DNA of 42,029 nt. It comes from Armatimonadota bacterium. GTDB lineage: Bacteria; Armatimonadota; DTGP01; JAKQQT01. The DNA lies in assembly GCA_029564025.1 (NCBI GenBank), contig JAKQQT010000507.1, forward strand, positions 1 through 42,029. Direction: 5' to 3'. The number at the start of each line of letters is the position of its first letter. Positions within the stretch are counted from its first letter, which is position 1. This document shows, one piece after another, positions 11,585 through 38,122 of the stretch. A model generated the notes under the pieces. It ran no database searches. It saw only the letters and a list, made by a program, of their open reading frames with translations, and was not told the origin of the DNA. The translations under genes were made by a program, and so were the position numbers.

Positions 11585-11617
11585 GGGGTTTCCGAATCAC
11601 CGGAAGCCCCTTTTTTT
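11585..11617 (+). terminator. Rho-independent terminator of the phosphodiesterase-like gene
   Basis: 10-bp stem GGGGTTTCCG / CGGAAGCCCC (one G.T), loop AATCAC, followed by TTTTTTT. Confidence 0.8.
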
Positions 11618-11687
11618 GCTGGTCTTTCGCCGGGTCCTTCGCCGGGCTGTCTGTTGCTATCGGAGGAGACGGTGGAAGGGGGATTCC

Positions 11688-14600
11688 ATGGTATACCACA
11701 AGCGTTATCTTCTGACTCTTTTGCTCTTCCTGATCCCGGCGTCTGCGTGCCTCGCCGCAACATACACCGTAACATCGGCGGACGAAGACGGCCCCGGCAC
11801 GCTGAGGCAGGCCATTACCGACGCCAACGGCGACTCGGAAGCCGACGTCATCGCCTTCAGCCTGCCGCCGCCATACGAAATCAGCGTTTCTACAAACCTC
11901 CCGGCGATGTCCCAGCCGGTTACCATCGACGGCTCGACACAGGCCGGTTTCACCGGACCGCCGCTTGTTTCCCTAGTCGGAGCGGGCGCCTCCGAAGGGC
12001 TTGTCATCGAAACCGGTGGCTGTCAGGTCAGATGCCTGAACATCCGGAACTTCACCGGCGCCGCAATCACCATCCGCTGGGGCGCGGAGAATTCAGTTAC
12101 GGGTTGCTGGCTCGGTCTGGACGCATCGGGCGAGAACGCCGTGCCCAACAACCGCGGCATTATTCTTCAATGGGGAACAACCGACAACACCATCGGCGGA
12201 TTGTCCGGCGGCGACCGGAACGTCATTTCCGGCAACACGGAAACCGGGATCCACATCACCGACTGGAGCACGTCACGCAACAAGGTGCTGGGTAACATCA
12301 TCGGTCTGAACGCCGCCGGAACGAAGGCCGTTCCCAACCGGTTGGGAGTCGCCGTTTGCTGTGACGCATCAGACAATGTCATCGGCTCCACCGCGGTCGG
12401 GGGACGGAACATCATTTCCGGCAACTATGAGGCCAATATCCAGTTCGACGACCGACTGGGCGGCAACGTCATCAGCGGCAATTACATCGGCACCACGGTC
12501 GACGGCCTGGAGGTGCCGATCGACGCCGGTATGACGAAAGGGGTTGAACTCTGGAACAGTGTCGGGCAGATAATCGGGCCGGGTAACGTCATCGCTGGTC
12601 ACACGGAAGCCGGCATCCGCATCGGTGGTGTGTATTCCGTGAACAACAGAATCATCGGCAACTGGATTGGCGTCAAGTCGAACGGTACCGAGCCTCTGCC
12701 GAACGGCGACGGCATCAAGGTTGATAACAACGCCCACGACAACACCATCGGGGGAACCTCCGAGAGCACCCGGAACATCATCTCCGGAAACTCCCAGGTC
12801 GGTGTCCGCCTCAACGGGCCGGGCGTCACCGGCAACGTTGTCTGCGGCAACTACATCGGCCTGGATCCGGTCGGTGAAAACGCTGTCAGGAACGGCGAAT
12901 ACGGCGTGGCTATCCAGGACAGGGCGTCCGGAAACACCATCGGAGGCACACAATCCGAGGCGCGCAACGTTATTTCCGGAAACCAATCGGACGGTGTGCG
13001 CCTGGAAAACCCGGGAACGACGGCCAACGTTGTATCCGGAAACTACATCGGCCTCGACGCCACGGGTTCATTCGCTGTGTCCAACGAGGGAACCGGCATC
13101 AGCGTTACGGACCAGGCTTCTCGAAATACGTTCGGCGGAACTGCTTCTGGAACGCGGAACTACATTTCGGGCAACAAGGGCTGTGGAATCTTCATCGACG
13201 GTATCGGCACCACGTCAAATGTCGTTCAGGGCAATGTCATCGGCCTGGAAAAGACGGGACTCAGCGCCGTGCCTAATGAAAACCAGGGTGTGGTTGTTGC
13301 GAACGGCGCGGTGGATACGCTGGTGGGTGGAACCGCGGCGGGCGCAGGAAACATCATCTCCGGCAACAATTCCCACGGTATCGAGGTTTCCGGCCGCGAC
13401 ACCGCGCGCACCATCGTTCAGGGAAACACCATCGGCTTGAATGTACCGCGCAACGTCACCGTCGGCAACAACGGTAACGGAATCATGGTCAGTTGGGAGA
13501 CGAGGTTCAACCTCATCGGTGGAACAGCGCCCGGCGCAGGCAACCTGGTGACCGGCAACAGTTCCGGCATCCACGTCGAGGATGCGCACGACAACGTGGT
13601 TCAGGGGAATCTCATCGGAACCGACCCGACCGGCCGCCAGAACCTCGGCGCGGGCTGGGCCGGCGTGAACATCGCCCAGGGCTCGCAGAGGAACATCATC
13701 GGAGGCGCCGGGGCCGGTGAGCGCAACATCATCGTGGGCGGCTGGTCGGGCGTGGCCCTCGTTGATTCCGGCACGGCGCACAACGTCGTTCGCGGAAACC
13801 ACATTGGCGTGGACATCACCGGGAATATCATCCTGGGCGGCGGTGACCATGCCGTGAACATACGCGAAGGCGCCCACGAAAACGACATCGGGGGACCGGG
13901 AACCGGCGACGGCAACATCATCGCTGGCTACGGAGGCAACGGTGTCGTGCTGGCAGGTAACGTGAGCCCGGTGCGGAACCGCATACTCCGCAACTCCATC
14001 CGAAACCACAATCTGCTGGGAATCGACCTGGAACCTGCCGGCGTGACGCGAAATGACGCCCGTGATAGCGACACCGGACCCAACATGTTGCAGAACTATC
14101 CGGTACTGACGTCGGCCGCCTACAGCGCAGGCAATATAGACATCACAGGCACGCTGAACAGTGTTCCGTCCACCACATTCCGGCTGGAATTCTTCAACAA
14201 CGCCCTTTACGTTGCGGGAGCCTATGGGCAGGGTGAGGTGTATCTCGGCTCGCAGAATGTGACCACCGACGCCTTCGGTAACGCGGCGTTCAACGTGTCA
14301 TTGCCCGCGCCTTCCAGGCCGGGCGCCGGGGTCACCGCGACGGCCACGGATTCCGCCGGTAACACGTCGGAGTTCAGCCTGTCCGTAAAGGTCGCCGACC
14401 TGCCCGTCGAGAGCAGTCTCGTGGTGACCAACGTGTACGATTCCGGCGAAGGCTCACTGCGGCAGGCGATACTGGATGCCAACGCCAGGGCCGGCCTGGA
14501 CACCATCACCTTCAACATCCCCGGCGGCCTCCAGCAGATAGCACCCGTTTCACCACTGCCACCAGTCACCGAATCGGTGGTCATTGACGGCACAACACAA

Positions 14601-17600
14601 CCTGGCTTCACCGGAACGCCGTTGATCGTCCTCGGCGGATGGTCCAGCGGAAACTGCGACGGCCTGGTCATCCAGGCGGACTCGTGCGTCATCAAGGCGT
14701 TGAATATCGAGGGATACGCGCGGGCCGGCATCGTTCTGGAGAGCGGCGGAAACACCGTAACCGGATGCCAAATCGGTATCGACCCGACCGGGATATACCG
14801 GTCACCGTGCACGCCGGGTATTCTGGTGCAGGGTGATAACAACATCATCGGCGGCTCCACGGCGGCGGAGCGGAACGTTATCTCGGGCAACAACAGTGCC
14901 GGAATTCTCCTGGACGGCGCCGCCGGCACGATGGTCACCGGCAACTTCATCGGCCCTGACCCGAGCGGTATGCTCGAGATCGCCAACCTGGACTCGGCTG
15001 TGCAGTTCCTCAACGGCGCCAACAACAACGTTATCGGCGGCCTGGGTGCCGGGCAGGCGAACCTGATATCCGGCAACTACGCGGCGGGTGTCGAACTGCG
15101 CGGCCCGGATGTGACACTCAACACCATCCAGGGCAATTACATCGGCGTCGACGTGACCGGGGTGGAGCCGCTGGCCAACCACTGGCTGGGCGTCCGCCTG
15201 TGTTCGGGAGCCCATCATAACACGGTGTCGAAGAACGTGATATCGGGCAACTGGCACAACGGCGTCGAGATTGCCGATACCGGTTCCGACGGTAACTCCG
15301 TCCTGCAGAACGTCATCGGATTGTGCGTGATGGGTGATGCGGCAATTCCGAACAATGCGGGTGTTGTGGTTCGGTACGGCAAGGACGCTGTGGTTGGCGG
15401 AAACACCATCTCGGGCAACATTAACAGCGGTATTGAACTGAGTGAGACTTCGGCCAACCGGGTTTATGGAAATCTGGTCGGCACGGACGTTACGGGTAGT
15501 TTGCCTCTGGGCAACATGGCTCACGGTATTGTCCTTCTTGGAGCAAGCCACGACAACGTCATCGGCGGACTGGCTCCGGGCGACGGCAATATCGTCTCTG
15601 CCAGCGGTTCCAGCGGTATTCAGTTCTACACCGAAGGAAACCGGGACAACCTGGTGCAGGGCAACATCATCGGGTTGGACATCACCGGCACGAAGCCGCT
15701 GGGCAATGCCCGTGAAGGCATCAGTCTGTGTTGCGGGGCTTCAAACAACACCATCGGAGGTACGGTGGCGAGCGCTCGCAACGTCATCTCCGGCAATTAC
15801 GGCGCCGGCGTCGGCGATTGGGCGACAAACACCCGTATTCAGGGTAACTATATCGGAACCGACGTAACAGGCGCCACCGCCGTTGGCAACGCTTACCAAG
15901 GCGCATACCTGAACTCCACTAACCCGATGGTACTCAACAACGTGGTGTCCGGCAACATGGGAGGAGGTATCGTCCTGCAGAACTCCAGCGGCGGTGTGGT
16001 GCAGGGAAATCACGTGGGGACGAATGCGGCGGGAACGGCCGCCGTCGGCAATTACTGGCAAGGCATCGGCCTGTTCTGGGCCAACAGCAACCACGTCATC
16101 GGCGGCAGTCTCCCCGGCCAGGGAAACCTGGTGTCCGGCAACTTCGGAAACGGCGTCCAGGCCAGTGAACTCAGCATCTCCAACGTTCAAATCCTCGGCA
16201 ACCGCATCGGCGTTCAGGCCGACGGCGTATTGCCTCTGCCGAACCGTCAGAACGGTATCGAGTGCTTCAGTGGCGTCACCGGCGTCACAATCGGCGGAAC
16301 GGCCGCGGGCGCCGGAAACACCGTCGCGTTCAACGGCGAGCGGGGCGTGTGGATACGCGACGGCTACAACGGCTCCTGCACAGGAATCGCCGTGCGCGGC
16401 AACTCAATTCACAGCAACACCCTCCTCGGTATCGATATCGGGCCGGAGGGTGTTACGCCCAACGATAACCTGGACGCCGACACCGGGTCGAACGGATTGC
16501 AAAACTTCCCGGTGCTTACGAAAGCCACGCTGTCAGGCGGTCAGGCGACCGTCACCGGCACGATGAACAGCAAGGCGAACACTGTTTACGCCGTCGACTT
16601 CTTCTCGGGACCCGCCTGCACCGCGCCGTGCACTCAACAGGGCGCTGTGTACCTTGGTTCGACAAGCGTGACCACGGATGCCGCCGGTTCGATACCCGTC
16701 AGCGCCACGGTTCCGTGCGCCCTGCCGGCAGGCAGTGTCATCACCGCCACGGCGACTTCTCCCACGGGCGACACCTCGGAGTTTTCAGCCGGGGTGAATC
16801 TGGTGGACTTCAAGCCCGTTCTGGCTGTGACCAATGTGGCCGTCGATGATTCGCTTGGTAACAACAACGGCGTCATCGACTACAACGAGTGCGTGAAACT
16901 CACGGTCACCTTCGGCAACACCGGGGCGACGGACGCAACCGGCGTGACGACGGGGATGAGCGTGACGACATCGGGAGTGACGGTTGTCGACGCCTCGGCT
17001 CCGGTGCCGGATATCCCGGCCGGGGGTACGCGAGCCAACACCACTCCGTACAAGATCGGCGTCTCGCCGTTATTCGTATGCGGAACACCAATCACCGGTA
17101 CGATTCAGGTGACGTGCGGGCAGGGCGTGTACAACGTCCCATTTGCCGTCGCCACCGGCACGGTTTCGTCGCCGATCACATACACGGCAACGGGACCGGT
17201 TGCCATACCGGACGGCGACCTGGCAGGCGTTGACCTACCAATCAGCGTTTCCGGACTCAGCGGTACTCTGGCGGATGTTACGGTAGCGCTGTACATCAGC
17301 CACACGTGGGATTCCGACCTGGACATCAGCCTGATCGGGCCGGACGGCACGAAGGTGGCGCTGGCGTCGGGCAGGGGAGGTTCCGGAGACAAGTTCGGGG
17401 CGGACTGCCCGGCCGGTTCGAACGATACCATCTTCGACGACACGGCGGCGAACTCCATCGCAACCGGAACGGCCCCGTTTACCGGATCCTTCCGTCCGGA
17501 ACAACCGCTCTCCGCGTTTTACGGCAAGGCGGGCGCGGCGGTGAACGGCACGTGGAAATTGCACGTGGTTGATGTCGTATCGACGGACGCGGGAACGATC

Positions 17601-17915
17601 GAATGCGCCTCTGTGACCATTCGGGAGAGAACTTGTTCGGACGGCGGCGGAACCTGCTCCGGAACGTTCATCTACGGCGACGCAAACGGAGACGGACTGG
17701 TCAATGCGGACGACGTGAAAGCGCTGTTGAAGGCGGTGGGCGGTCTGGCGCGCACGAAGCCGATGAACGGAACGGCCGATATCAGCATCGCCGCCGTTGA
17801 CACCGCACCGAAGCCCTCCGCCGATCCACGCGGATTCGGCGATGGAAAGCTGACTATGGCGGACGTGGCGCGGTTGATACGCCATCTGAACGGCAAGGAG
17901 CCGGTTTACCCGTGA
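11688..17915 (+). CDS. Giant secreted right-handed beta-helix protein (two complete modules) with proprotein-convertase P domain and dockerin-like C-terminus
   Basis: 2076 aa from MVYHKRYLLTLLLFLIPASACLA (signal peptide); repeated N(T/V)IGG...RN(V/I)ISGN...GNYIGxDxTG; two GxGSLRQA(I)xDAN N-caps; P domain VALYISHTWDSDLDISLIGPDGT...NGTWKLHVVD; YGDANGDGLVNADDVKALLKAVGG...GDGKLTMADVARLIRHLNG. Confidence 0.9.
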   Translation: MVYHKRYLLTLLLFLIPASACLAATYTVTSADEDGPGTLRQAITDANGDSEADVIAFSLPPPYEISVSTNLPAMSQPVTIDGSTQAGFTGPPLVSLVGAGASEGLVIETGGCQVRCLNIRNFTGAAITIRWGAENSVTGCWLGLDASGENAVPNNRGIILQWGTTDNTIGGLSGGDRNVISGNTETGIHITDWSTSRNKVLGNIIGLNAAGTKAVPNRLGVAVCCDASDNVIGSTAVGGRNIISGNYEANIQFDDRLGGNVISGNYIGTTVDGLEVPIDAGMTKGVELWNSVGQIIGPGNVIAGHTEAGIRIGGVYSVNNRIIGNWIGVKSNGTEPLPNGDGIKVDNNAHDNTIGGTSESTRNIISGNSQVGVRLNGPGVTGNVVCGNYIGLDPVGENAVRNGEYGVAIQDRASGNTIGGTQSEARNVISGNQSDGVRLENPGTTANVVSGNYIGLDATGSFAVSNEGTGISVTDQASRNTFGGTASGTRNYISGNKGCGIFIDGIGTTSNVVQGNVIGLEKTGLSAVPNENQGVVVANGAVDTLVGGTAAGAGNIISGNNSHGIEVSGRDTARTIVQGNTIGLNVPRNVTVGNNGNGIMVSWETRFNLIGGTAPGAGNLVTGNSSGIHVEDAHDNVVQGNLIGTDPTGRQNLGAGWAGVNIAQGSQRNIIGGAGAGERNIIVGGWSGVALVDSGTAHNVVRGNHIGVDITGNIILGGGDHAVNIREGAHENDIGGPGTGDGNIIAGYGGNGVVLAGNVSPVRNRILRNSIRNHNLLGIDLEPAGVTRNDARDSDTGPNMLQNYPVLTSAAYSAGNIDITGTLNSVPSTTFRLEFFNNALYVAGAYGQGEVYLGSQNVTTDAFGNAAFNVSLPAPSRPGAGVTATATDSAGNTSEFSLSVKVADLPVESSLVVTNVYDSGEGSLRQAILDANARAGLDTITFNIPGGLQQIAPVSPLPPVTESVVIDGTTQPGFTGTPLIVLGGWSSGNCDGLVIQADSCVIKALNIEGYARAGIVLESGGNTVTGCQIGIDPTGIYRSPCTPGILVQGDNNIIGGSTAAERNVISGNNSAGILLDGAAGTMVTGNFIGPDPSGMLEIANLDSAVQFLNGANNNVIGGLGAGQANLISGNYAAGVELRGPDVTLNTIQGNYIGVDVTGVEPLANHWLGVRLCSGAHHNTVSKNVISGNWHNGVEIADTGSDGNSVLQNVIGLCVMGDAAIPNNAGVVVRYGKDAVVGGNTISGNINSGIELSETSANRVYGNLVGTDVTGSLPLGNMAHGIVLLGASHDNVIGGLAPGDGNIVSASGSSGIQFYTEGNRDNLVQGNIIGLDITGTKPLGNAREGISLCCGASNNTIGGTVASARNVISGNYGAGVGDWATNTRIQGNYIGTDVTGATAVGNAYQGAYLNSTNPMVLNNVVSGNMGGGIVLQNSSGGVVQGNHVGTNAAGTAAVGNYWQGIGLFWANSNHVIGGSLPGQGNLVSGNFGNGVQASELSISNVQILGNRIGVQADGVLPLPNRQNGIECFSGVTGVTIGGTAAGAGNTVAFNGERGVWIRDGYNGSCTGIAVRGNSIHSNTLLGIDIGPEGVTPNDNLDADTGSNGLQNFPVLTKATLSGGQATVTGTMNSKANTVYAVDFFSGPACTAPCTQQGAVYLGSTSVTTDAAGSIPVSATVPCALPAGSVITATATSPTGDTSEFSAGVNLVDFKPVLAVTNVAVDDSLGNNNGVIDYNECVKLTVTFGNTGATDATGVTTGMSVTTSGVTVVDASAPVPDIPAGGTRANTTPYKIGVSPLFVCGTPITGTIQVTCGQGVYNVPFAVATGTVSSPITYTATGPVAIPDGDLAGVDLPISVSGLSGTLADVTVALYISHTWDSDLDISLIGPDGTKVALASGRGGSGDKFGADCPAGSNDTIFDDTAANSIATGTAPFTGSFRPEQPLSAFYGKAGAAVNGTWKLHVVDVVSTDAGTIECASVTIRERTCSDGGGTCSGTFIYGDANGDGLVNADDVKALLKAVGGLARTKPMNGTADISIAAVDTAPKPSADPRGFGDGKLTMADVARLIRHLNGKEPVYP

Positions 17916-26726: not shown

Positions 26727-28955
26727 TCAGAACTGCAGGATTACGCTGTCTCCGGCGGTTATCTTCAGCAGGCGGCGTTCCTCGGACCTCAAGTTGACAA
26801 CACGCAGGGCGAGGTCCCTGGTCCACGGATTCGTGAGGCGCAATACTCCCGTCTGCCAGTCCACGTCTTCGACGACCAGTGATTCCAGCAGATACAACCC
26901 TTCGCAGTCCGGGTCGATGAAGATGTGCCCGAACGAACTGAGCCAGTCCTCGATCCAGACGGTCCAGCCCGCGCACCAAGCGTGAGCCAGGGGTAGGATG
27001 TAGCCCTTCGGGTGTGTCCAGTCCGTGTGGAACCATTGTTCTGGAACCATACCGCGGCGAGCATTGAAGTCACCGTCCTCACGGGCGATGAACTGGCGGA
27101 AGCAGAACAGGTGGTCGCGGGCGCGGGCGAAGTAGAAGTCGTCCCGTGTGATGCGCCACAGCCTCAGCAGTTCCGGCAGGCAAATCAGTCCGTAGTTGTG
27201 CAGGTGCTGGTTCGAGGGCGAGGCGATATCACCGCCCTTGGTTCGGAAATCATACTGGCCGAGCAAGGTGTACGGCGAGAACGGAGTGTTGTACGACATC
27301 CGGAACGACAGCATGTAGTCCGCGGCGTGGCGGGACAATTCCAGCCACTCCTCATCGCCTTCCTCCTCGTACAGGTTGAGCATCGCAATGAGGGCATTAT
27401 AGCCGTCTTCTGACGTGACGCCGTACGGAACGTCCTCGGGGGCGCCGAAAAGTGATTCATTCCGTATCGATTGCGCGTAGTATCTTCCCGCTTTCACGGC
27501 GGCCTCGCGGTAGGCGGCGGAGTTCGGGAAGGGCAATCCGTCCGCGCGCGTCGTTCGGTGAGCGTCCAGCAGGGCCGGAATCCAGGAGAGACCTCCCGCC
27601 CCCTCCCACTCCTCCACATTTCCGGTTTCGAGGTGGTAGTACGTTCCAAACGAGCCGTCGTCCCTTTGAATCTTCAGGGCGAAATCCAGATTGGACTCCA
27701 CGGCGCGGCACCATAAATCGCGCCTCGCCGGGGTTATCCAAGGCGCTCTGCTGTGAAGGCCGATAATGTAGAACCAGGTAGCCTCGGCAATCGTCCGGCT
27801 CTGGGCGTAGGGAGCGGCGGGTCTCCCGGCGTTCCAACCGTGGGTCCATCCATCTTCCCTGGTCCAGCGAGGATAGAACATCCCCGCAGGCGCGATTCCC
27901 TCTTCGGCGATTCGGTCCAGCACGCTTAAGCCGGCTTGCGCCAGGTCGTTCCGTCCGGTGCGCGTGCCGTAACGGGCGAGGGCAAGGGCATAGGGGGCAC
28001 CGCTGACCCACGCGATGTGCATATCGGGCCGGTCCAGTTGTGTCGGATCAGGCCGGAAGTAGCGGTCGAAACCGGCCGTTTCGTAAAGGGTGGCTGGATC
28101 GCGGGAAAAGTGCCACTGCATCAAACCGTCGGCCGCGAGTTCGGCGGCTTCACCGCCGGAAATCCACGGTTGAAGGTCATCGGGATCGTCCTTGTACATG
28201 TCACGCAACAGAGACCGCCAACCGTCGTCGGTGACGCACGCCTCGAACGAAAACTCGACTGTTTCGGAGGGCAATACGACGAAAGAGCGCGATCTGGGCC
28301 TGGACCCGTCGGGACCGAACAGCGCGGGGCTGACCGGTTCTTCGCGCCACGGGAAGTGCAGGGACAGGTGGCTGATGCGTCCGTCGCTTCCGAAGCCGAG
28401 TCCCGATTCACCGTGGCTGAACGAAACCGGGGTGGATACGGCCGCCGCTGTGTCTGTATTCCGGAGCATCGCGAAGGGCGTCATCGTTCGGTCGGTGCGG
28501 AACCGCCAGACGGGCGAAGAAGCGGGATCATCTTCGTCAACGGGGGACCAGCGGGGGTACGAGCCTTTTCCATCCGGCCGGTTTTCGCCGTAGAAAATAC
28601 CGGGCACAAAAGGTTGCGCCTTTTTCAGTTGCACATCCCAGAAGACGTCCCAGGCGGTTTCCGCAGGCTCCATACCGAGGTACTGCGCACAGACGGTCCA
28701 ATGCGCCCGGGGAGCGAGGTCGCCAGCGACGGTAATCTCCGCGGTAATCTTCCACCGGTCGGCAATCTCGCCGGTTATCTCGAGGCCGTCCTGGGAGCGG
28801 ACGGCGTGGATCCAGCGCACCGGCTCACCGTCGCGCTCAGCAATCAGCAGGTTCGTGAGAACCGGTTGATCCGCCATGTCCAACGAAAATCGGTAAGTGT
28901 CTCCGCGGCGTTCAGCGCGAACGCGGCGGCCTAGTTCCAGGTATAGTTCAGCCAT
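26727..28955 (-). CDS. Six-hairpin (alpha/alpha)6 glycosidase-like protein, family not recognised
   Basis: HGWNAGRPAAPYAQSRTIAEATWFYIIGLHSRAPW...ESNLDFALKIQRDDGSFGTYYHLETGNVEEWEGAGGLSWIPALLDAHR; N-terminal beta-sandwich-like region; start at MAELYLELGR (28955). Confidence 0.55.
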   Translation of the reverse strand: MAELYLELGRRVRAERRGDTYRFSLDMADQPVLTNLLIAERDGEPVRWIHAVRSQDGLEITGEIADRWKITAEITVAGDLAPRAHWTVCAQYLGMEPAETAWDVFWDVQLKKAQPFVPGIFYGENRPDGKGSYPRWSPVDEDDPASSPVWRFRTDRTMTPFAMLRNTDTAAAVSTPVSFSHGESGLGFGSDGRISHLSLHFPWREEPVSPALFGPDGSRPRSRSFVVLPSETVEFSFEACVTDDGWRSLLRDMYKDDPDDLQPWISGGEAAELAADGLMQWHFSRDPATLYETAGFDRYFRPDPTQLDRPDMHIAWVSGAPYALALARYGTRTGRNDLAQAGLSVLDRIAEEGIAPAGMFYPRWTREDGWTHGWNAGRPAAPYAQSRTIAEATWFYIIGLHSRAPWITPARRDLWCRAVESNLDFALKIQRDDGSFGTYYHLETGNVEEWEGAGGLSWIPALLDAHRTTRADGLPFPNSAAYREAAVKAGRYYAQSIRNESLFGAPEDVPYGVTSEDGYNALIAMLNLYEEEGDEEWLELSRHAADYMLSFRMSYNTPFSPYTLLGQYDFRTKGGDIASPSNQHLHNYGLICLPELLRLWRITRDDFYFARARDHLFCFRQFIAREDGDFNARRGMVPEQWFHTDWTHPKGYILPLAHAWCAGWTVWIEDWLSSFGHIFIDPDCEGLYLLESLVVEDVDWQTGVLRLTNPWTRDLALRVVNLRSEERRLLKITAGDSVILQF

Positions 28956-29072
28956 AGTTATAGTAACGGTAGCGCCTGTGTATGAATGCCCGGCGTTGCT
29001 TTGCCTCACTCATTATGAAGGCACAGGGCGCCGGTAGTTCAACGCCTTGGTGATACGGAGGGTAGTGGTTTC

Positions 29073-34432: not shown

Positions 34433-37237
34433 TCAGAGCGTGCCGGTTTCGCGAATCAGATCCACGCGCCGGCGGGTCCACTTTTCGAACTCCACAGCCC
34501 AGAAGACGATGCTTCCCGCGCCGAGGCTGACGAGCAACTGAATGCCGGTCAGCGCGTGTGTGTGGAAGATCGACTGCAGAGGCGGAAGGTAGAGGATGGC
34601 CATATGCATCACGAAAATGGTCATCGCCGCCGTCAGCAGGGGTCGGTTGGTAGCCAGGCCGATGCGGAATAGCGATTGCGTTTCGGACCGGGCGTTCAGC
34701 GCGTAGCTCATCTCGGCAGAGGTGAGCGCCGTGAAGATCATGGCGCTCCATGGTCCCGCGTGTCCGCCTTGGGTCTGGTATCCCCACACGCCCACGCACA
34801 TCGCCAGAATGCCCACCAGGAAGCCCATGACGACCATCTGGTAACCGAGTCCCTGGCTGAACGGCCCTTCGTTCTGGGGGCGCGGCCCGGAGCGCATCAC
34901 GTTCTTGTCGGCGGGTTCCAGACCGAGCGCCAGGCCGGGGATGCCGCCGGTGATGAGGTTTATCCAGAGCAGTTGCAGAACCGTAAGCGGGACGGGCATA
35001 CCAAACGCTTGCGTCAGCAGGATGCACGCCACTTGTCCGACGGTGCTGGCGATGATGTATCCGATATACCGCCGGGCGTTCCGGCAGACGGTACGGCCGA
35101 TTTCCATCGCGCGGACGAGCGTGGAGAAGTTGTCGTCCATGATCACGATGTCGGCGGAATCCTGCGCGATGTCGGTTCCGGAGACGCCCATCGCGGCGCC
35201 GATGTCCGCCTTCTGAAGCGCCGGGGCGTCATCGACGTGATGCCCGGTGATTGAAACGTTGGCGCCGCTTTTCTGGAAGGCCGTTACCAGCGCCAGGCGC
35301 TGTTCGGGTGTGATGCGCGAGAAAGCGGAAACGTCTTGAAGAACGGACGGAAGGTCTTCGTCCGGAATTTGTGCCAGTTCGGCGCCTGTCAGTACTTTGT
35401 TGTTAAACGAAATGTGCAGAGCCCGGGCGATTCTGCCGGCTGTCGGGCCGTCATCGCCGGACAGCATCACGGGCCGGATACCGGCGGACAGGCAACTCCA
35501 GATGGCCAGCCTCACGCCTTCGCGCGGCGGATGGTTCATCCCGGCCATGCCGATAAACACCAACCCGGTTTCCAGCGGCTCCACGGCGCCGTCCGGGGCT
35601 TTCTCGAGGGGACGGCACGCGATTCCGAGCACGTAAAGGCCTTCCTCAACGAGGCCGGCTTGCTTGTCGCCCAGTTCGCGGCGCAATTCGCCGGTCAGGG
35701 GGACAATCTGGTCGCCGCGCCACACGCGGTTGCACACCGAAAGCACGCTGTCGAACGAGCCTTTCGTCACAAGGAAGAATGGCGATGAGTCGCCACGGAA
35801 CAGCCAGGCAAGGGGAACATTCTGGCAGTCGCACCGCAGTTGGTGGACGGTGCTGACCCTTTTTCGTGCCGCGCTGAAGGGGGCTTCGGCGACGACCGGA
35901 TAGGCTTCATCGAGGCTTGCCTCCGGGATATCGTGCTCCGTCGCGGCCCTCACAAACGCTTCATCGACGGCCTGGGGGGCTTTTTTTCCGTTGGATTCGG
36001 CTTTGCCGCCGGGCACACAGCGGTCTTCGCGGCACATCGCCGCCAGTGCGAGCAGGATCTTCGTGGCAGGATGCGTGCGCTGTCGTCTGTGGTTCCGGGC
36101 GGTGGTGTCATGCTGATCGAGCGCGCTCTGGCCGACCAGTTCCGTGTTGTACCCGGCAATGCTGACAACGCGAACCGTCTGGTGCTCCTCGACCAGAGTG
36201 CCGGCTTTGTCCGCGCAGATAACGTTCACCGAAGCAACGTTTTCCACGCTGGACAGGCGTCGCACCAGGATGTTGTTCTCCAGCATCGTCTGCGCGCCCT
36301 GCGCCAGGGCAATCGTCATCACGCCTGGCAGGCCGATGGGGCATGCCGCCACGACCACGACAACGGCGGCGGCGATCATCTCCTCGGTGGTTTTGCCGTA
36401 CACCGCGCCTGCAGTAACAACCAGGGCCACGTCCACCATGATGGCGGCAAGAAGGACGTCGCACACCAGAGCCACTCTTTTCTGGAGGGGAGTCAGTTCG
36501 GCTCGAATCTTCGATGCGACCGGTGTCTGGACGGGCGTGTCCGCCTGCGCGTTGGCGGCCAGCACAACAGCGGCGCCGGTGCCGTGGATCACCGTGGAGC
36601 CGCGCCACAGCATGTTGTCAATCGGAGAATGACTACCGCCTTGATCGTTTCGCTTGTTGATTCGCACCGTCTCGCCTTCGGGAGTGATCTCCTGGATGCG
36701 AAGGTTACTGCTTTCTATCAGCCGCGCGTCGGCGGGAATCAGGGAACCGGCTTCCAGCAGAATCACGTCGCCGGGTTTCACTTCGTGGGCGCGAATGAGG
36801 TGTTCGGAGCCGTCGCGGTCCCGGACGCGCACCGAGGGCACGGCAATACGGCGTAATCTGGTGATGGTTCTGTCGGCGCGCGTCTCCTCGATGAAACCTA
36901 GCCCCGAGTTGATGATGATAATCAGCAGGATGGCGCTGACGTTCCGCCAGTCGGAATAGAGAAGGCTGATGGCGGCGACAGACATCAGCACCAGCATCAG
37001 CGGCGCCGAAAGCTGTTGCCAGATGATGCCGGCCGGGGTGCGCGCGGTGTCGGTTGAAAGCGCCTGCGCGGACTCGCGCCCGCGACCGTCCGTGAAATCC
37101 TCTCGCAAGGCGCGGCGCCGGGCTCGCCGTCCCGAAACCGTAGTCGGCGGAGCGGTCGGCCAGGGAGCGTCGTTGATGTACAGCGGCTGGTCGGTACGTT
37201 TCAAATGAGGCAGTTCCCCGTGCGTGGTAAAGGTCAA
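34433..37237 (-). CDS. P2-type (SERCA-like) P-type ATPase homologue with altered catalytic and ion-site motifs
   Basis: 934 aa intact ORF with recognisable A, P, N and TM regions, but PIGLP, DKAGT, SGDD, GHHVDDAP and NLITGGIP replace PEGLP, DKTGT, TGD, GDGxNDAP and NLxTDGxP. Confidence 0.85.
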   Translation of the reverse strand: MTFTTHGELPHLKRTDQPLYINDAPWPTAPPTTVSGRRARRRALREDFTDGRGRESAQALSTDTARTPAGIIWQQLSAPLMLVLMSVAAISLLYSDWRNVSAILLIIIINSGLGFIEETRADRTITRLRRIAVPSVRVRDRDGSEHLIRAHEVKPGDVILLEAGSLIPADARLIESSNLRIQEITPEGETVRINKRNDQGGSHSPIDNMLWRGSTVIHGTGAAVVLAANAQADTPVQTPVASKIRAELTPLQKRVALVCDVLLAAIMVDVALVVTAGAVYGKTTEEMIAAAVVVVVAACPIGLPGVMTIALAQGAQTMLENNILVRRLSSVENVASVNVICADKAGTLVEEHQTVRVVSIAGYNTELVGQSALDQHDTTARNHRRQRTHPATKILLALAAMCREDRCVPGGKAESNGKKAPQAVDEAFVRAATEHDIPEASLDEAYPVVAEAPFSAARKRVSTVHQLRCDCQNVPLAWLFRGDSSPFFLVTKGSFDSVLSVCNRVWRGDQIVPLTGELRRELGDKQAGLVEEGLYVLGIACRPLEKAPDGAVEPLETGLVFIGMAGMNHPPREGVRLAIWSCLSAGIRPVMLSGDDGPTAGRIARALHISFNNKVLTGAELAQIPDEDLPSVLQDVSAFSRITPEQRLALVTAFQKSGANVSITGHHVDDAPALQKADIGAAMGVSGTDIAQDSADIVIMDDNFSTLVRAMEIGRTVCRNARRYIGYIIASTVGQVACILLTQAFGMPVPLTVLQLLWINLITGGIPGLALGLEPADKNVMRSGPRPQNEGPFSQGLGYQMVVMGFLVGILAMCVGVWGYQTQGGHAGPWSAMIFTALTSAEMSYALNARSETQSLFRIGLATNRPLLTAAMTIFVMHMAILYLPPLQSIFHTHALTGIQLLVSLGAGSIVFWAVEFEKWTRRRVDLIRETGTL

Positions 37238-37381
37238 ATTCCATTCTACGCGACACGGGGCGCAAATAGGCCCTCTATCTTTTCAGGGAACCGGCAAATA
37301 CTACAATAAATGGATTCCGCCGTCCGGCGCCGGATGTCTGTCGGGCCGACGGTTTCGCGTGCATTACCACAGGAGACGGCC

Positions 37382-38122
37382 ATGACCGTGCCGACACTGC
37401 CCGAACAACACGCCATCGCGACGCATTTTCCGATTGCCATGCTGTTGACCGGAATCGTGTTCGATATGCTTGCGTCTATTGTGCGAAAACCGGTATGGCG
37501 CGCCGTGGGATTCTGGATGATGCTGGTGGGTGCCGTGATGACGATTCCCTCGGTGGTCACCGGGTGGATGACATTCTCGGATATGTACTCGAATTCGATC
37601 CCACCGGTTGTTGCGGTTCAGCACCGCTTGTTGGCTATTGTAACAACGGTCCTGGCCCTGATACTGGTCGTGCTTCGCATCGCCGATCGCGACAAGGCGA
37701 CCGGTTGGACGAGGGCGCTTCATGTGCTGGCCGGGATTGTCGCGGCTCTGGCCGTGGGCGCCACCGGGCACCTGGGAGGGCAACTGGTATTCAGGGGAGG
37801 GGCGAACGAGGTTTCGCCGGGCGCTCCTCACGCGGCCGCCCAGGCGGAGTTTACACCGCCTCCGGCCCTGGTGACGGAAGGCGAGAACCTGTTCTGGAGC
37901 GACGCCATTGGTTGCCGCGACTGCCACCGTGTCGGTGAAAGGGGTGGATTGACCGGACCGAATCTGACCTCAATCGGCACCTCGAAACCCGATGTGATGT
38001 GGCACGTGAGGCATCTTGAGGACCCCGCGGCCGTGGTGCCCGGATCCATGATGCCCAAAAACGAGAAACTGACACCTCTTCAGCGCGAGGCCCTGGCTAT
38101 GTACCTGGTTTCCCTGCGCTAG
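37382..38122 (+). CDS. DUF2231-like membrane domain fused to c-type cytochrome
   Basis: N-terminal four-TM region HAIATHFPIAMLLTGIVFDML...; CRDCH heme site at 37913-37927 and likely distal Met in SMMPKNEKLTPLQREALAMYLVSL; start at MTVPTLPEQH. Confidence 0.78.
   Translation: MTVPTLPEQHAIATHFPIAMLLTGIVFDMLASIVRKPVWRAVGFWMMLVGAVMTIPSVVTGWMTFSDMYSNSIPPVVAVQHRLLAIVTTVLALILVVLRIADRDKATGWTRALHVLAGIVAALAVGATGHLGGQLVFRGGANEVSPGAPHAAAQAEFTPPPALVTEGENLFWSDAIGCRDCHRVGERGGLTGPNLTSIGTSKPDVMWHVRHLEDPAAVVPGSMMPKNEKLTPLQREALAMYLVSLR

Follow-up and report, generated by a model that had tools for sequence, protein, structure and literature searches.

An Armatimonadota genome encodes a full-length homologue of P2A Ca2+-type ATPases in which both the catalytic shell and the ion site are altered, and these combined changes make normal Ca2+ pumping by the 934-aa protein improbable as judged from its sequence. 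The gene lies in a window of 42,029 nucleotides, the whole stretch of DNA that was analysed. We favour, with roughly even confidence, the reading that it encodes a transport-dead, still folded pseudopump that descends from P2A Ca2+-type ATPases, possibly nucleotide-binding and kept for a non-pumping role.

An intact reading frame with altered motifs

Residues are named in SERCA numbering unless query numbering is indicated. The gene and its motifs are as follows.

34433-37237 (minus strand): gene for the 934-aa P2A-type ATPase homologue, changed at catalytic and ion-site residues and starting with TTG
36668-36682 (minus strand): A-domain loop P-E-G-E-T with L186P (query numbering), T181E and S184T, catalytic Glu E183 (= E189) retained, from the alignment
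36335-36337 (minus strand): M4 PEGL changed to PIGL, E309I (I301); E in 52/52 homologues
36197-36211 (minus strand): phosphorylation loop DKTGT changed to DKAGT (T353A), with D351, K352, G354 and T355 retained, from the alignment
35633-35635 (minus strand): R560Y (Y535) at a nucleotide-contact position; R in 52/52 homologues
35531-35533 (minus strand): DPPR changed to HPPR, D601H (H569); D in 52/52 homologues
35453-35461 (minus strand): TGD changed to SGD, T625S, D627 retained; T in 52/52 homologues
35297-35299 (minus strand): K684R (R647); K in 52/52 homologues
35222-35245 (minus strand): Mg2+ loop GDGVNDAP changed to GHHVDDAP (D703H, G704H, N706D), D707 retained, from the alignment
35033-35044 (minus strand): M5 N768T and E771Q (T732, Q735), at positions variable in the family
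34946-34960 (minus strand): M6 NLVTDG changed to NLITGG, D800G (G764 at 34946-34948), N796 and T799 retained; D in 37/52 homologues

The ORF contains no internal stop and its predicted fold is complete, in agreement with the original prediction of a full-length, uninterrupted P2-type homologue. The product is homologous throughout the A, N, P and M domains and has 10 TM helices, the P2A layout. Pfam matches above cut-off are PF00122 (E1-E2_ATPase), PF13246 (Cation_ATPase) and PF00689 (Cation_ATPase_C); PF00702 (HAD hydrolase) scores below cut-off and PF00690 (Cation_ATPase_N) is undetected by Pfam, the N-terminus being divergent. All of these domains, including PF00690 and PF00702, score above cut-off in the canonical paralogue L136. 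The top NCBIfam model is the PMR1-type TIGR01522, ahead of the SERCA-type TIGR01116, at 464 bits against an equivalog cut-off of 798, and the top PDB sequence match is LMCA1 of Listeria. AlphaFold2, given a 38-row alignment, produced a complete E1-like P2A fold (mean pLDDT 81.2, pTM 0.79), uncertain over the first 62 residues and in a few loops; drawn from canonical homologues, the model is biased toward the canonical fold. Its best solved neighbours are SPCA1, LMCA1 and SERCA (TM about 0.7-0.8); over all Foldseek matches to these and to Na,K-ATPase, TM is 0.65-0.78, the higher scores being mainly against E1-type structures.

All the motifs quoted in the original prediction (DKAGT, GHHVDDAP, SGDD, NHPPR, PEGET, PIGLP and NLITGGIP) occur in the ORF, although its coordinates were 1-3 bases off (DKAGT lies at 36197-36211 and GHHVDDAP at 35222-35245). 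The substitutions that it listed, T353A, D703H, E309I and D800G, hold in the alignment, and those that it missed are R560Y, K684R, G704H, N706D, N768T, E771Q and T349V, the last of these being the final Thr of DKTGTLT (query numbering). Its equation of PEGET with TGES was out of register: the counterpart of TGES is EGET, only T181E and S184T are changed, and the catalytic Glu is retained. The positions E309, T353, R560, D601, T625, K684, D703 and N706 are invariant in 52/52 homologues, where the query carries I, A, Y, H, S, R, H and D, respectively; G704 is also invariant in the other homologues and changed only here. K684R, T625S and N706D are conservative changes. Further changes fall outside the core motifs, namely G235P and the replacement of the N-domain GDPTE by PQAVD. 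Ion-site loss as evidence stands for E309I, and is weaker for the other ligands, since the family itself varies there (N768 in 39/52, E771 in 33/52, D800 in 37/52). Thus DKTGT, a GDGxND loop with D703, and PEGL with acidic M5/M6 ligands, as expected of a functional P2A pump, are missing, whereas the dephosphorylation Glu of TGE is present (E189 = E183). Also retained are D351, K352, T355, G626, D627, D707, F487, K515, N796 and T799.

These changes suggest how the protein might behave. Without D703, T353 and other shell residues, Mg2+ would not be placed for aspartyl phosphorylation, and the loss of E309, E771 and D800 would leave the ion site with no acidic residue. The Post-Albers cycle would then presumably not run. 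With F487, K515 and D627 in place, nucleotide binding would be possible, leaving a folded, nucleotide-responsive membrane protein. Such a protein may have a regulatory or sensing role, and could act as a sensor, as a partner of another membrane protein or as a modulator of one of two canonical P2A paralogues.

Comparison with homologues and selection

Homologues came first from 61 relatives, next from a set of 291 phylum genomes, and also from a scan of genome contigs; the motif alignment has 54 rows, and residues were counted over 52 full-length homologues, two of them canonical copies that the same genome carries. Every homologue in the 54-row alignment has canonical motifs, with the 934-aa protein the sole altered member. 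The original prediction had asked whether homologues share the substitutions: none of the 52 does, and only this copy is degenerate. It retains 62/84 (74%) of columns conserved at ≥95% (leave-one-out scoring) and 9/17 active-site residues, as against 15-17/17 in the other 52, whose median is 99% of such columns and 17/17 residues; the next lowest homologue, L032, which has a comparably long branch, keeps 83% and 15/17. Among fully invariant columns, losses amount to 8/15 functional and 5/26 other (Fisher p = 0.04), a modest signal that weakens at looser thresholds (p = 0.06-0.08; p = 0.08 at 90%). Three of the five other losses themselves fall inside motifs: T349V (DKTGTLT), G667H (GDG) and G421P (N-domain GDPTE) (query numbering). 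The alignment over these 52 homologues therefore bears out the earlier claim that catalytic shell and ion site are both altered.

No close orthologue with the same changes was found in the 291 phylum genomes or in the scan of genome contigs, and a pattern search of the 291 genomes found neither C-x-DKAGT nor TGHxVxDAP in another P-type gene; other matches to these patterns, in short or antisense frames, were rejected as chance. Six exact 8-residue query peptides searched against genome contigs led only to homologues about 24-27% identical over long alignments, and a scan of viral contigs gave no match to the protein. Elsewhere in the homologue set, a P2A clade within one family (L120, L122, L124-L127, L129, L130, L132-L134) has G at N768, S at E771 and N at D800 with catalytic motifs intact; from these residues, its members probably differ in ion choice.

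In the tree, the 934-aa protein clusters with L111, L112 and L002 (SH-aLRT 99), canonical proteins of 38-40% identity to it, inside a group of P2A proteins from the same phylum. The end branch leading to it is 3-4 times longer than those of these three sisters (1.74 changes per column, compared with 0.40, 0.51 and 0.63), a length that makes its placement somewhat uncertain. Divergence is uneven along the protein: the first P-domain segment, in which the sisters resemble one another most, shows the largest drop (identity to sisters 0.47-0.49, versus 0.78-0.89 between sisters) and M7-M10 the smallest (0.33-0.41 versus 0.35-0.52). GC by codon position is 0.65/0.47/0.77, that of neighbouring genes. 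Neutral mutation was simulated up to the loss of 13/41 invariant columns, or of 33/127 columns conserved at ≥90%. The simulated genes acquired a median of 8-11 stop codons (about 9), and stop-free genes numbered 0/2000 in three settings and 1/2000 in the fourth; on top of the stop codons counted here, frameshifts would make an intact frame rarer still. Prolonged neutral decay is therefore unlikely and is rejected by the simulation, whereas recent or partial relaxation of selection is not.

Genomic context

The neighbours of the gene are a patatin-like gene in convergent orientation and, divergently oriented, a gene for a DUF2231/cytochrome c protein. Features of the gap and of the wider window are listed below.

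37238-37309 (no strand): 72-bp gap between the ATPase homologue gene and the divergent gene at 37310 (DUF2231/cytochrome c); the sole promoter-like site is on the plus strand, a count no higher than chance expectation
37310-38122 (plus strand): fusion of a DUF2231 membrane domain with a cytochrome c domain at the C-terminus
11616-17915 (plus strand): 2099-aa ORF with TTG start
26727-29009 (minus strand): 760-aa ORF with no Pfam match

The closest relatives of genes on the window contig, 59% and 71% identical, are in the one same-family genome compared (G001), which places the contig in this lineage. G001 keeps the adjacent ABC permease/ATPase pair without the ATPase homologue gene or the DUF2231-cytochrome c gene beside it. 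The sister genes lie in unrelated neighbourhoods, and no conserved neighbourhood was found with L111, L112, L002 or G001 that would suggest a partner.

At least two further P2A-type genes, each with canonical motifs, lie in the same genome: one is complete on C593 and one runs off its contig end on C659. The latter is the second canonical paralogue, L137 (G000:C659), and L139 (G000:C167) matches the C-terminal part of the P2A family; the two pieces are probably one split gene. In addition, C591 encodes a heavy-metal-type pump, and C414 carries an incomplete P-type gene. The canonical paralogues L136 and the incomplete L137 could provide cover for Ca2+ pumping.

Known systems, rival explanations and significance

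The P2A Ca2+-ATPases LMCA1, PMR1/SPCA1 and SERCA share with the 934-aa protein the A/P/N/M layout and the sequence and structure matches, but it lacks their E309, T353, R560, D601, D703, G704, N706, N768, E771 and D800 and scores below the family cut-off. P4 lipid flippases have Ile at the E309 position of M4 and retain DKTGT and the GDGxND loop. The M4 Ile is thus common to both, whereas the 934-aa protein lacks DKTGT and GDGxND and groups with P2A pumps by sequence and tree. The P6 ATPase CtpE lacks the M6 Asp, as here, but retains PEGL in M4, and shows that transport can survive when the M6 Asp alone is lost (PMC10654040).

The nearest parallel, and the one clear one, is human TMEM94/ERMA, a eukaryotic ER protein with a P-type fold that has DKQGI for DKTGT and GSSANL for GDGVND (PMC12134183; PMC13322241), and its own activity is disputed: one group detected neither ATPase activity nor a nucleotide at the site (PMC12134183), while another reported ATP-dependent Mg2+ uptake requiring the Asp (PMC13322241). 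Both proteins keep the Asp-Lys of an otherwise degenerate phosphorylation loop and have a hydrophobic M4 motif. TMEM94 lacks TGES and its nucleotide pocket is blocked, whereas the 934-aa protein, a bacterial one that the tree derives from within P2A pumps, retains both the TGES Glu and the F/K of the N domain. TMEM94 entries are absent among the best 60 sequence and best 50 fold matches listed for it, and a text search of open-access papers found none containing both 'P-type ATPase' and 'pseudoenzyme'.

The original prediction also suggested that the fold is maintained and pumping compromised; the intact frame, the predicted fold and the loss of shell and ion site agree with this. Its idea of a maintained pseudoenzyme is plausible only in part, since canonical homologues beside a single degenerate copy make up one half of what it had named as a refutation. 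Several points count against the pseudopump: the phosphorylatable Asp, the Lys, T355, D627, D707 and the TGES Glu are retained although a fully dead enzyme could dispense with them, it is known from one sequence and the searches gave no orthologue sharing its changes, the neighbourhoods compared point to no partner, and the Fisher signal is modest. A possible, if rather doubtful, account is that of a recently relaxed, redundant gene on its way to loss, in which paralogues took over, catalysis went unselected and the frame is as yet unbroken. The long end branch (1.74 against 0.40-0.63 in the sister genes), G235P, the GDPTE-to-PQAVD change, an N-terminus without a Cation_ATPase_N match, the TTG start, the want of a strong promoter-like site and occurrence in a single genome among those compared would all fit such a gene, but a median of 9 stops and 0/2000 stop-free genes in the neutral simulation to 13/41 changed columns argue otherwise, as do the persisting codon-position GC signature and the 62/84 columns still conserved. 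An assembly or binning artefact, with foreign or chimeric sequence in the metagenome-assembled genome, is very improbable: the genome is in 756 contigs with an estimated contamination of 6.39%, yet genes on the same contig are most related to the same-family genome (59% and 71% identity), the GC of the gene equals that of its neighbours, its nearest relatives come from the same phylum, and scattered in-frame missense changes are atypical of assembly errors.

We consider it unlikely that the protein remains active as a P-type ATPase whose catalytic centre has been rebuilt and whose substrate differs. A D-D pair results from N706D with D707, H666/H667 may bind a metal other than Mg2+, and the M4 Ile, as in P4 lipid flippases, would fit a neutral or bulky substrate; D351, K352, T355, D627, D707, E183, F487 and K515 are kept, and K684R, T625S and N706D are mild. 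Nevertheless, D703, T353, R560, D601 and E309 are invariant in 52/52 homologues, no intermediate form occurs among them, and P-type mutants at the D703-equivalent position are inactive in mutagenesis. Precedent is divided: TMEM94/ERMA is reported to drive ATP-dependent Mg2+ uptake despite DKQGI and GSSANL (PMC13322241) and CtpE-type P6 pumps transport Ca2+ without the M6 Asp (PMC10654040), but no ATPase activity was detected for TMEM94 by the other group (PMC12134183). Its most specific form, a working pump or flippase of new chemistry that arose from a Ca2+ pump in one bacterial lineage, with D351/K352/D707 and N706D, His at 703/704/601, no acidic ion ligand and Ile in M4, seems to us quite unlikely.

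The importance of the finding is moderate, because it concerns one sequence from one metagenome-assembled genome. A bacterial P2A pump with TMEM94-type lesions and canonical paralogues in the same genome would offer a simple, independent system, and, with the lost invariant residues listed exactly, it opens the question of what a P-type fold may be capable of without its catalytic loop.
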